26,379 nucleotides of DNA, taken from the IMG/VR virus record IMGVR_UViG_3300044675_002423, positions 1 to 26,379 of that record; one strand, written 5' to 3'. The notes under the pieces were generated by a model that had not been told where the DNA came from, did not search any database, and saw nothing but the letters and a program-made list of their open reading frames with translations. Every line of letters starts with the position of its first letter. The first letter of the stretch is position 1. Below, piece after piece: positions 5,882 to 16,443 of this stretch. The position numbers and the translations under genes were made by a program. The stretch comes from a virus.

Positions 5882-5906
5882 GGTTATATAACGACGAAAG
5901 GACAAC

Positions 5907-10463: not shown

Positions 10464-10486
10464 GTATGCACAACGAAAGGTTTGAA

Positions 10487-10525
10487 ATGAAACAATTGTC
10501 AGTAAAGACGCAGGTGACAACATAA
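10487..10525 (+). CDS. 12-residue leader peptide ahead of the primase
   Basis: ATG 10487 has a clear SD (AAAGG, 10476-10480, six-base spacing) and encodes MKQLSVKTQVTT. Its TAA stop (10523-10525) abuts the ATG of the primase at 10526. The primase has its own AGGTGA at 10512-10517, inside the short frame. Ribosomes translating the leader would cover the second SD, so coupled or attenuated translation is likely. It is not rich in any one amino acid, so not a typical attenuator. The peptide itself may have no function. Confidence 0.5.
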   Translation: MKQLSVKTQVTT

Positions 10526-13266: not shown

Positions 13267-14235
13267 GTGAAGATTACGATTGCTACCCCTATGTACGGTG
13301 GTATCTCAAAGAGCGTTTATGTCGCTTGTCTAAGTGAACTTATGTCTAAGTTGGGTGAGTCTGGCCACTCTGTAAACCATGTCTCTATTACAAATGAGAG
13401 CCTAATCACTAGAGCAAGAAACACTCTCGCTCATATGTTTTTAAAGAGTGACAGCGATGCTCTTTTGTTTATCGATGCTGACCACGGATGGGTTTCAGAC
13501 GACGTTGTAAAAATGGTCAACTCTGGTAAAGACCTTATCGGTGCTATCTACCCAATGAAATCAATCAACTGGGATAACGTACACGCTGCAGCAATTTCTG
13601 GTCGCCCAGCAAACGAACTTTCTCTTTACTCTGGAAACTTTGCAATTAACTTCCTACCAGAGAATCAAGAATTTAAGGCTGACGAGGCTTTTAAGGTTCG
13701 TGACATCGGTACTGGAATGATGTTTATTCGTAGAATTGTGTTTGACACAATCGCTCCTCTATGTAAGACATACAACAACAATTCTCCTAGTGCTGATATT
13801 GCTATGGGAGAAAAGATGGTTGAGTTTTTCCCGACTATCATTACTGATGAGCCTGAAGCAATTCTTCTATCTGAGGACTACGCTTTCTGTCACATGTGGC
13901 GTCAAGCAGGGCAACATGTCTACGCTGCACCTTGGGTAAGAATTACTCACGCTGGAGAATACAACTTCTCTGGATTCTTCTTAAAGACTCTAGAAATTCA
14001 AAATCAGATGGCTACAGCACAGCAGGATTACAACCCTTTTGAAAATGTAGACGAAAACGGAAACGTTGTTGTGAATACGCCTAGTCATCCGATTGATGTT
14101 GAATTGAGTCAAGCAGATTCTTTACAGTCGTTGGATACCATTTTCGAAGGTTCTGCGTTGGAATCTGGTCTCGATTTAGCCCCTCAGCAATCTGACGAAA
14201 AGAAAGCCCCAAAGACCTCTCGGAAGAAATCCTAG
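13267..14235 (+). CDS. GT-A-type glycosyltransferase with an antisense-derived tail
   Basis: 322 aa, GTG start preceded by AAGGAG. The N-terminal strand KITIATPMYGG, RARN (49-52) and LLFIDAD (DxD at 70-72), then DIGTGMMFIRR and a late EDYAFCHMWRQAG segment are the layout of family-2-like GT-A enzymes: donor binding, metal site, acceptor loop. It could glycosylate phage DNA, virion or host surface. The catalytic part ends near residue 255. The last 51 codons (14081-14233) run antisense to the recombinase gene and look low in complexity, ending TSRKKS. This suggests the original 3' end was replaced when the recombinase arrived. Confidence 0.82.
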   Translation: MKITIATPMYGGISKSVYVACLSELMSKLGESGHSVNHVSITNESLITRARNTLAHMFLKSDSDALLFIDADHGWVSDDVVKMVNSGKDLIGAIYPMKSINWDNVHAAAISGRPANELSLYSGNFAINFLPENQEFKADEAFKVRDIGTGMMFIRRIVFDTIAPLCKTYNNNSPSADIAMGEKMVEFFPTIITDEPEAILLSEDYAFCHMWRQAGQHVYAAPWVRITHAGEYNFSGFFLKTLEIQNQMATAQQDYNPFENVDENGNVVVNTPSHPIDVELSQADSLQSLDTIFEGSALESGLDLAPQQSDEKKAPKTSRKKS

Positions 14236-14752
14236 ACTTAATCTCTTCTGGAGTCTTATTCTTAGGTCCCATATCCACGCCCCAAACTATGCCTCGTTCT
14301 CGACGGTCTTTATGTACGTCTTTCTGACGGGCAGCAATGATGCCTCGTTCCATCTCGGCTAGTGCTGACATAATTGTCACCACGAAACGGCCTTGATAGG
14401 ACGAGGTATCTAAGTTTAGGTCGAGCATTACAAGACGCCAGCCTTTGTTATTTGCTCGGTCAATAATGTTTAGAAAGTCCTTTGTAGAGCGTGCTAAGCG
14501 GTCTATACGGGTTACAAACAAAGCGTGGGCTTCTCCGCTATCTAAGCGTTTAAGGGCGTCTGTGAGGGCAGGACGGCCTGAAATGGACTTACCTGAGCGA
14601 CCCTCTTCACGAACTAATTCGTACTCTGTAAAGCCAGCCAGTTCTGCTGCTTGGATTAGTTGACGTTCTTGAACATCAAGGCTCACACCATCGTTAACTT
14701 GTAATTGAGTTGAGACACGAGCGTATAGTAATGCAATTGCATTGTCAGTCAT
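14081..14752 (-). CDS. Serine recombinase, resolvase/invertase type
   Basis: 223 aa from ATG 14752, chosen because GGAG lies five bases upstream; a longer frame to 14794 lacks an SD. The catalytic domain opens IALLYARVST, with the nucleophile in the RVS motif, then SGRPALTDALKRL, VTRIDRLARS (active-site arginines) and an E-helix segment MSALAEMERGIIAARQ. The C-terminus has the helix-turn-helix GLSFRQIAEGLNRDQIPTQ...W. Size matches Tn3/Hin/Gin small serine recombinases, not the 450-600 aa large serine integrases. It could resolve, invert or mobilise DNA. No partner transposase is seen. Its 3' end overlaps the GT gene by 155 bases on the opposite strand. Confidence 0.92.
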   Translation of the reverse strand: MTDNAIALLYARVSTQLQVNDGVSLDVQERQLIQAAELAGFTEYELVREEGRSGKSISGRPALTDALKRLDSGEAHALFVTRIDRLARSTKDFLNIIDRANNKGWRLVMLDLNLDTSSYQGRFVVTIMSALAEMERGIIAARQKDVHKDRRERGIVWGVDMGPKNKTPEEIKSRISSERSLGLSFRQIAEGLNRDQIPTQNLRKWYPTTVKNLLDSIQHQSDD

Positions 14753-14771
14753 AGTTACTCCAGAGTTATAT

Positions 14772-14785
14772 AATAATGTATCATT
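14772..14785 (-). promoter_or_regulatory. Extended -10 region of the recombinase gene (approximate)
   Basis: On the - strand, TGATACATT (extended -10) is followed by AT-rich DNA and then GGAG-N5-ATG at 14752. A TTGCCA box lies 20 bases upstream, slightly too far for a normal -35. Position is approximate to a few bases. Confidence 0.35.
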
Positions 14786-14817
14786 TTCGTACATTTACTT
14801 TGGCAAAAAATGCCGTA

Positions 14818-14843: not shown

Positions 14844-15362
14844 TTACTGGAGATTGATTAAATGCGTAGGCTCTGGGAATGAAGTTAGCGACGTAAGTGG
14901 ATAACGCCAGCCACCAATATACGGGTCTATGTAATAGTCGTTATCAATTACTGTGTCAGCCATAACCCAGCCGTAAACTTCAACTTCTGTGAAGTATTCC
15001 ATGTCTGTAACTTTACAGCCCACGATTGCCTTGCCAGAATCCTTTTTCCAGATAGGAACTTCATCATAAGTACGAACTGTGCGTACTTCTATGTTCCCAC
15101 CGACGTCAGGTAAGTCTTTGCGATAAGGGTGCAATTCGTTTGGATACCAAGGCAGGTTATAGGACTTGTTGGTGGCCTTTGCCACAGCGTACTCGGCAAC
15201 AATGGTTCGGACGTTAGCCAATAGTTCTGGCTCTAGACGTCCGTCTTTTTTGCCCTCTGCGTAGTTGGGGCGGTCGGTGCTACCGAACTTCATTAGCCAG
15301 CGTTCTACGGCTAGCATTGTGCAAACTCGGATTTCATCTTTTGTCATTTGTACTTTAAACAT
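14844..15362 (-). CDS. Conserved-looking protein, weakly nuclease-like
   Basis: 172 aa. I do not recognise it with confidence. An N-terminal helix (TKDEIRVCTMLAVERWLMKFG), a helix with an acidic residue (LLANVRTIVAEYAVAKATN), then LPDVGGNIEVRTVRT and GKAIVGCKVTDMEYFTEVEVYGWV resemble the E...D...ExK/R arrangement of some PD-(D/E)XK-fold proteins, with arginine in place of the usual lysine. That likeness is tentative. The ATG lies six bases after an extended -10 box with no SD, so it is a leaderless mRNA. It sits directly downstream of the candidate small RNA and its terminator. Confidence 0.7.
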   Translation of the reverse strand: MFKVQMTKDEIRVCTMLAVERWLMKFGSTDRPNYAEGKKDGRLEPELLANVRTIVAEYAVAKATNKSYNLPWYPNELHPYRKDLPDVGGNIEVRTVRTYDEVPIWKKDSGKAIVGCKVTDMEYFTEVEVYGWVMADTVIDNDYYIDPYIGGWRYPLTSLTSFPEPTHLINLQ

Positions 15363-15368
15363 GTTTAT

Positions 15369-15377
15369 AGTCTAGCA
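15369..15377 (-). promoter_or_regulatory. Extended -10 of a leaderless promoter
   Basis: TG-C-TAGACT on the - strand, then six bases, then ATG at 15362. No SD is present. It is nearly identical to the promoter box at 15474-15482. Confidence 0.6.
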
Positions 15378-15379
15378 CG

Positions 15380-15421
15380 AAAAAAGAAAAACCGCCCAGT
15401 TTGTGCGAACTGAGCGGTTTT
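15380..15421 (-). terminator. Rho-independent terminator, leftward
   Basis: Arms 15408-15421 and 15388-15401 pair over 14 positions with one mismatch around a six-base loop. Read on the - strand the stem leads into TTTTTCTTTTTT. In the + direction only four Ts follow, so the leftward sense is the functional one. It would end both methyltransferase mRNA and the candidate small RNA. Confidence 0.88.
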
Positions 15422-15467
15422 CCACGAAAGGAGACTGATATGAACAACAGCCTGTCAATTACTTGAC
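15382..15467 (-). ncRNA. Candidate small regulatory RNA (~86 nt)
   Basis: A promoter (TTGAAA, 18 bp, TGCTAGTCT) ends six bases before 15467. The predicted RNA begins with a perfect hairpin GUCAA-GUAA-UUGAC with a GNRA loop, continues with about 32 unpaired bases containing CUCCUUUCGU, and ends in the terminator hairpin with U-tract. That order (5' stem-loop, single-stranded seed, intrinsic terminator) is typical of bacterial small RNAs. The seed is complementary to ACGAAAGGA in the leader of the 5907 gene (9 bp) and to ACGAAAGG in the primase leader (8 bp). No similarity to a known RNA family is claimed. Alternative: simply the 3' untranslated end of the methyltransferase mRNA. Confidence 0.45.
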
Positions 15468-15473
15468 TTCTAT

Positions 15474-15503
15474 AGACTAGCACACATTGACGTCAATTTT
15501 CAA
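15474..15503 (-). promoter_or_regulatory. Promoter with palindromic operator for the candidate RNA
   Basis: On the - strand: TTGAAA (15503-15498), 18-bp spacer, extended -10 TGCTAGTCT (15482-15474). The spacer contains the perfect palindrome ATTGACGTCAAT (15486-15497), well placed for a repressor, and it also overlaps the stop codon of the methyltransferase gene. Confidence 0.5.
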
Positions 15504-16443
15504 CACTTTTTACAGTAATTGAGCCAAAAACTCCAACTTCAGTTGTAAGCCTTTGCTCCGACAATTCAGCGTAATCCTTGTTTATCTCAATGCCAATGTA
15601 GTTTCTGTTGTTTTGTAAAGCCACTACTCCAGTAGTTCCAGAGCCTGAAAATATGTCTAGCACTGTGTCATTAGGCCTAGAACCTGCCAAAACGCAAGGC
15701 TCGATTAGAGCCGTTGGGTAGACAGCAAAGTGTGCACCTTTATATGGCTTGGTAGATACAAACCAGACATCACGTTTATTTCTCAAGCCAGTGTCTTCAA
15801 AAACTCTACCTTCGTCGTTACGCAATGTACCTACTTGATTAGATGCACCAAACTGACGTGGCTTTCCATTTTTAGTTGTAGCAGGTTCTTTCATTGCCAC
15901 GTGGTCAAAAAAGTATTTAGGTTTTTTGCTAAGCAGAAAAATATATTCGTGTGACTTAGTGCAACGGTCTTTCACGCTTTCAGGCATTGGATTTGGCTTA
16001 GCCCAGATAATATCTTGGCGAAGGTACCAGCCATCCTCTTGTAAAGCAAAAGCAACTCTCCAAGGAATACCAATTAAATCTTTTGACTTTAGTCCATCGA
16101 CTTTATTGTTTAAAGCGGTGGTTTGGCCGTTTCTTCCATTGCTGTACTTAGGGTCTTTGTGTTCGCCCTTGTGTCCAGTACCAACGTAAGAGTCTCCTAG
16201 GTTTAGCCAAACTGTGCCATCATCTTTTAGCACACGCTTGACGTCACGAAAAATTTCTACAAGGTTTTCCACAAACTCGTATGGAGTGTCTTCTTGTCCA
16301 AGTTGGCCAGTAGTTCCGTAATCTCTTAGTCCCCAGTATGGTGGAGACGTAATTACTGTTTGTACGGATTGGTCTGGCAAGGATGCCAATGCCTGTCTTA
16401 CATCGCCATTTAATATTTCAGCGGTATTTGTCATTTTTGTCAT
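15493..16443 (-). CDS. Orphan DNA methyltransferase, beta class (m6A or m4C)
   Basis: 316 aa. The catalytic motif TSPPYW (32-37) lies near the N-terminus and the SAM motif VLDIFSGSGTTG near the C-terminus. This order defines beta-class N6_N4 methyltransferases (PF01555), which methylate the exocyclic amine of adenine or cytosine; SPPYW leaves both possible. No restriction endonuclease is adjacent, so it is probably a stand-alone enzyme that protects phage DNA from host cleavage or alters regulation. Start ATG 16443 lies six bases after TGATAGGCT with no SD (leaderless); a second ATG three codons on is less well placed. It diverges from the small zinc-finger gene on the + strand. Confidence 0.92.
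   Translation of the reverse strand: MTKMTNTAEILNGDVRQALASLPDQSVQTVITSPPYWGLRDYGTTGQLGQEDTPYEFVENLVEIFRDVKRVLKDDGTVWLNLGDSYVGTGHKGEHKDPKYSNGRNGQTTALNNKVDGLKSKDLIGIPWRVAFALQEDGWYLRQDIIWAKPNPMPESVKDRCTKSHEYIFLLSKKPKYFFDHVAMKEPATTKNGKPRQFGASNQVGTLRNDEGRVFEDTGLRNKRDVWFVSTKPYKGAHFAVYPTALIEPCVLAGSRPNDTVLDIFSGSGTTGVVALQNNRNYIGIEINKDYAELSEQRLTTEVGVFGSITVKSVEN

Follow-up and report, generated by a model that had tools for sequence, protein, structure and literature searches.

A candidate anti-Shine-Dalgarno small RNA family encoded by putative actinophages

The minus strand of the window, by which we mean the whole 26-kb IMG/VR record (26,379 nucleotides), carries a small RNA gene at about 15468-15380, made of an extended -10 promoter followed by three hairpins, the third of which is the terminator. 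The gene, its strand, its structure, its exposed motif and its conservation were established by sequence comparison, and it probably encodes a trans-acting anti-Shine-Dalgarno RNA of ~90 nt that would most likely block mRNAs led by a Shine-Dalgarno (SD) sequence. The small RNA family is undescribed as far as our searches show. An earlier note on this DNA had predicted such a gene, short and equipped with a promoter, a terminator and an anti-SD seed; the analysis supported that prediction, but most of what the note had built on it was not established. The minus strand of the RNA region reads GTGTGCTAGTCTATAGAAGTCAAGTAATTGACAGGCTGTTGTTCATATCAGTCTCCTTTCGTGGAAAACCGCTCAGTT... and contains, with its neighbours, the following features.

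15493..16443, minus strand: DNA methyltransferase gene, upstream; another gene stands there in L004 and L099
15474..15482, minus strand: extended -10 promoter element TGCTAGTCT; TGNTANNNT immediately precedes hairpin 1 in each of the 14 RNAs compared
15454..15467, minus strand: hairpin 1, GUCAA-GUAA-UUGAC; two-sided changes at 5 of 5 pairs in 8 sequences
15432..15453, minus strand: hairpin 2, AGGCUG/CAGUCU (15453-15448 with 15437-15432), loop UUGUUCAUAU; from folding and covariation
15426..15434, minus strand: invariant UCUCCUUUC, which contains CUCCUUUC; 14 of 14 RNAs compared
15380..15423, minus strand: intrinsic terminator, of which 15423-15386 form the hairpin and 15385-15380 the U-tract; from folding and covariation
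15369..15377, minus strand: extended -10 (TGCTAGACT) distinct from that of the RNA and belonging to the downstream 172-aa gene, at a position that suits a leaderless mRNA with its ATG at 15362
14844..15362, minus strand: gene of a 172-aa protein, function not assigned, downstream; adjoins the RNA in class 1 phages

The -10 element, the six bases that separate TGCTAGTCT (15482-15474) from hairpin 1, the hairpin with its GUAA loop and the terminator with its U-tract were all confirmed as the earlier note had described them. Transcription would start near 15468-15466. The note had also described about 32 unpaired bases, but most of these are taken up by hairpin 2, which it overlooked and which is kept in relatives; 8 nt, CCUUUCGU (15431-15424), are exposed between hairpin 2 and the terminator. 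CUCCUUUCGU lies at 15433-15424 on the same strand. The whole RNA folded at -34.1 kcal/mol (z -6.4) and the terminator at -20.6 kcal/mol (shuffle z -6.0). The palindrome ATTGACGTCAAT, proposed as a promoter operator, is present, and the exact TTGACGTCAA is unique within the window, but among homologues it occurs only in the identical L002 and is missing from every non-identical one, and the operator was rejected.

Gene order and primase in the window match those of DSL-LC01, a 129-kb lake phage whose Actinomycetia host was assigned by prediction, without observation (PMC10611076), and the window was therefore taken as a likely piece of a larger actinophage genome. The two primases share 67% identity over part of the protein only. 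No copy of the RNA was found in DSL-LC01 with either of the models used. The phages that carry the small RNA probably have freshwater actinobacteria as hosts.

The RNA has homologues in about 15 contigs of related phages, where it occupies two gene loci that are unrelated to each other; these contigs are incomplete, and their genes were called by simple ORF rules. At the first locus, relatives of the 172-aa gene with the same element occur in L003 and L004/L005, and wider searches added L099 and L109/L110. The promoter -10, hairpin 1, UCUCCUUUCGUGG and the terminator are kept there, while the intervening sequence varies. L004 and L099 have another gene upstream of the RNA in place of the methyltransferase, indicating that the methyltransferase is not part of the RNA and that conservation of the RNA is not inherited from its neighbour. 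A covariance model built from five sequences was used to find further copies in relatives; its E-values are rough, as the calibration was shortened. The second locus lies 3' of a small-protein gene with the motif LLHEVLHA, by this motif only a metalloprotease-like protein, in G009, G016, G472, G474, G010, G012 and G473. In G011 and G014 the RNA lies further along from this gene. Relatives that keep the terminator alone had been proposed as a sign of a plain 3' UTR; promoter, UCUCCUUUC and terminator were retained in 14 of 14 RNAs compared, and the 5' stem in nearly all of them, an outcome that favours the RNA gene.

The weakest second-locus copies scored near background with the models, so this locus was gathered again by protein similarity alone, without the motif. 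Among the loci displayed, ten distinct ones have a non-coding gap, and in all ten this gap holds an RNA-like element in which a -10, hairpins and a terminator are combined with a CU-rich motif left exposed. As some of the 14 RNAs had been found by patterns or models including UCUCCUUUC, this protein-gathered set is the fair sample; in it CUCCUUUC is present in 8 of 10, and CCUUCCUUUC lies in a hairpin loop in L525 (G007) and L540. The assignment of the classes farthest from that of the window, whose model scores are weak, rests on synteny and motif. G007 carries a class 1 RNA plus a second-locus RNA. At L218 4562-4448 (G007) and in L540 the hairpin loops of a related RNA bear CCUUUC or CCUUCC, and the second hairpin is nearly identical between the second RNA of G007 and L540. 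A search for host homologues gave model matches in 15 of 151 small actinobacterial genomes, of an order that may not contain the host; the five inspected proved to be terminators that lack the CUCCUUUC linker. The weak phage matches L194, L197, L198 and G012:73116 were likewise terminators.

The folding, the conservation and the covariation are all far beyond what chance would give. In the alignment of 8 sequences, 97.4% of cells pair, two-sided changes occur at 14 pairs against a shuffle mean of 7.0, and the score is 0.60 against 0.25 in shuffles, counts biased in favour of the structure since the alignment had been fitted to that of the model. Sliding the partners by one column lowered pairing to about 50-60%, and a MAFFT alignment of five sequences gave the same picture with fewer changes. 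In hairpin 1, A-U is replaced by G-C in a compensatory manner in L003 and L109; in the terminator all pairs are retained in 8 sequences, with two-sided change at 7 of 14. G.U cells numbered 31 and A.C cells 1, which fixes the minus strand as the transcribed one. Most members do have an SD-ATG pair on the other strand, where GAAAGGAG followed by ATG AAC AAC could open a short translated ORF, but the peptides vary in length and sequence (8, 9, 15 and 16 codons), L109 has no ATG, and the G.U asymmetry, the promoter and the U-tract all point to the minus strand. Opposite-strand coding is therefore strongly disfavoured and extremely improbable. An extended -10 in every one of the 14 RNAs, a covarying terminator and the lack of a conserved opposite-strand ORF fit the general class of trans-acting bacterial and phage sRNAs; transcription of the RNA would be driven by this promoter and end at the intrinsic terminator.

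The RNA would fold so as to present UCUCCUUUC single-stranded. This motif is identical in 14 of 14 RNAs compared, while hairpins 1 and 2 are rebuilt, and its core CUCCUUUC is identical to the anti-SD of 16S rRNA; the expected 16S rRNA end GGATCACCTCCTTTC was found in 5 of the 8 actinobacterial genomes tested. CCUUUC was exposed in 15 of 15 RNAs, whereas dinucleotide shuffles exposed it in 3.7% of cases on average. In class 4, UCUCCUUUC has moved into a hairpin loop. In G011 and L544, CUCCUUUC/UCCUUUCU is repeated in the terminator loop; G009, G472 and G016 have CCUUCC or CCCCC in the hairpin 1 loop; and in L540 and the second RNA of G007 the hairpin loops display CCUUCCUUUC and motifs like it. 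Judged by these motifs, some members are multivalent. An invariant, exposed copy of the 16S rRNA tail, repeated in some members, is best read as an anti-SD RNA. The motif would most likely pair with the SD sequences of a group of mRNAs; ribosomes would then be kept from loading during infection, and these mRNAs would be repressed. Conservation of exposed pyrimidine motifs without any conserved mRNA target would also suit a decoy whose CU-rich segments capture a protein or a G-rich host sRNA rather than an mRNA. The 8-nt identity of the invariant core with the 16S tail, however, is a more specific feature than a mere wealth of pyrimidines, and we consider a decoy unlikely.

Pairing of the anti-SD motif with two leaders in the window had been taken to mean that the RNA silences two genes of the phage itself, the pyrimidine-dimer glycosylase (5907) and the primase. 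The 9-nt match in the 5907 leader exists (ACGAAAGGA, 5894-5902) and is kept in G004, but it is lost in G006, where the orthologue reads GACAGAAAGAC despite the same RNA seed. The 8-nt match before the primase (ACGAAAGG, 10473-10480) exists as well and recurs as ACGAAAGG in G004 and, with one G.U, as ACGGAAGG in G006/G007. However, some 46 nt separate it from the primase ATG downstream, and it is the ribosome-binding site of an upstream ORF.

10487-10525, plus strand: ORF of 12 codons, MKQLSVKTQVTT, with its own ribosome-binding site; its stop abuts the primase ATG

Because this ORF abuts the primase, pairing at its ribosome-binding site could still reduce primase translation by coupling. G004 and G006 likewise have a short ORF before the primase, which suggests translational coupling. 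As a ribosome-binding site, ACGAAAGG is standard among the related phages, with or without the RNA, so that the two matches of 8-9 nt are not above chance; even in DSL-LC01, where the RNA was not found, 12 of 13 GAAAGG leaders are ACGAAAGG. The bases flanking the seed (GU, GG, AC and AA) differ among classes, and leaders of the same phage do not follow them. Silencing of these two phage genes is accordingly a doubtful explanation. No target site was conserved across the phages, the complementarity being generic SD, and a whole-genome duplex scan of start regions gave no recurrent target, with unrealistic interior loops dominating its scores.

A second exposed element, UUGUUCAU (or UUGUACAU), lies 6-10 nt from CUCCUUUC in most members, and UUGUUCAU...CUCCUUUC could be the antisense of the start of one mRNA (GAAAGGAG-n-AUGAACAA) of the host or a competing phage, a partner that would be expected to carry AUGAACAAC. 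We hold this to be quite unlikely, as the spacing varies from 6 to 10 nt, the AUG part is not in place in L109 and G011, and no conserved gene with such a start was found in 198 and 201 actinobacterial genomes or in the phages. Neither phages nor actinobacterial genomes gave one conserved mRNA complementary to both UUGUUCAU and CUCCUUUC. Nor was a host mRNA complementary to both exposed parts found in the actinobacterial genomes, of which the small ones belong to an order that may not contain the host. As candidate host targets, starts with SD plus AUGAACAA(C) occurred in chance-level numbers in 198, 6, 201 and 201 genomes (sets that overlap), and a G472 gene with SD plus ATGAACAAC was rejected as a target since its orthologues lack that start.

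To our knowledge, few phage-encoded trans-acting sRNAs are known. Searches of Rfam gave no family match at the gathering threshold and a permissive scan no match to 6C, indicating that the RNA is a member of neither 6C/B11 nor Yfr1/Yfr10; the best reading would be a new phage sRNA family that works like one or the other. B11 represses eccB4 via its C-rich loops (PMC10470900, citing Mai et al. 2019). The phage RNA is like 6C/B11 of mycobacteria and other actinobacteria in its actinobacterial setting, its small size, its hairpins and the proposed action of C-rich loops on mRNAs. Unlike these it is phage-encoded and without an Rfam match, and whereas 6C has C tracts in two loops, the core of the phage RNA is CUCCUUUC, usually in the linker before the terminator. 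Class 1 has no C tracts in its hairpin loops, which are GNAA (hairpin 1) and UUGUUCAU; CCUUCC or CCCCC loops occur only in some class 2 members. Yfr1 and Yfr10, which have many mRNA targets, carry a conserved UCCU-containing motif; in Yfr1 it is single-stranded and flanked by two hairpins, and in Yfr10 it lies in the loop of a hairpin (PMC6778093). Both presentations, linker and hairpin loop, occur in the phage RNAs, but the cyanobacterial RNAs have another motif, belong to another phylum and are host-encoded, and no Rfam match links them to the present one. The c4 RNA of P1/P7 is a phage RNA that covers a ribosome-binding site, as proposed here (PMC12197685), but it has one phage target with specific complementarity, whereas no specific target was found for the present RNA. 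Non-coding RNAs of mycobacteriophages L5, D29 and StarStuff are likewise small actinophage RNAs of unknown function (PMC5712189); they come from other phages and other loci and are set apart by these, not by sequence. A type III toxin-antitoxin RNA was rejected: the RNA is a single non-repeated unit (by eye) with no tandem repeats, and the protein encoded downstream, for which Pfam gave no match, is retained in L006, L007 and L113-L119 although the RNA is not next to it there.

One exposed copy of the 16S anti-SD is thus kept at two independent loci while its surroundings are rebuilt, and it is sometimes multiplied within a molecule. The family offers a clear and testable example of how a phage RNA is directed at actinobacterial translation initiation, and the alignment and models allow a search for the RNA in phage transcriptomes. 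In actinobacteria, SD-led and leaderless mRNAs are mixed. A multivalent anti-SD RNA might act in the infected cell as a general switch of translation that disfavours SD-led mRNAs and leaves leaderless ones of the phage untouched, that of the downstream 172-aa gene among them; we give this wider role only a small chance.

Several minor observations were made on the same phages. In the window and in most related phage contigs, ~10-16% of genes have TANNNT 5-8 nt before the start codon, a position as for leaderless mRNAs (control 3-6%). In L006, L007 and L117-L119 a tRNA-Gly with a terminator occupies the place of the class 1 RNA upstream of the 172-aa gene, and a tRNA-Gly is likewise found in L107 (2366-2437). 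No relative of the 172-aa protein was found in prokaryote genomes. Several related phages have tmRNA genes with the tag AESRSAFALAA or AESRSAFALVA, some with tRNAs nearby.

L107, 573-905: tmRNA gene
L108, 1297-1642: tmRNA gene
L117, 1306-1603: tmRNA gene
L492, 12691-13036: tmRNA gene
L499, 8972-9311: tmRNA gene
L218, 9878-10230: tmRNA gene

A serine recombinase gene with a Resolvase domain (window 14081-14794, minus strand) adjoins the RNA region, and DSL-LC01 has a recombinase at a like place.
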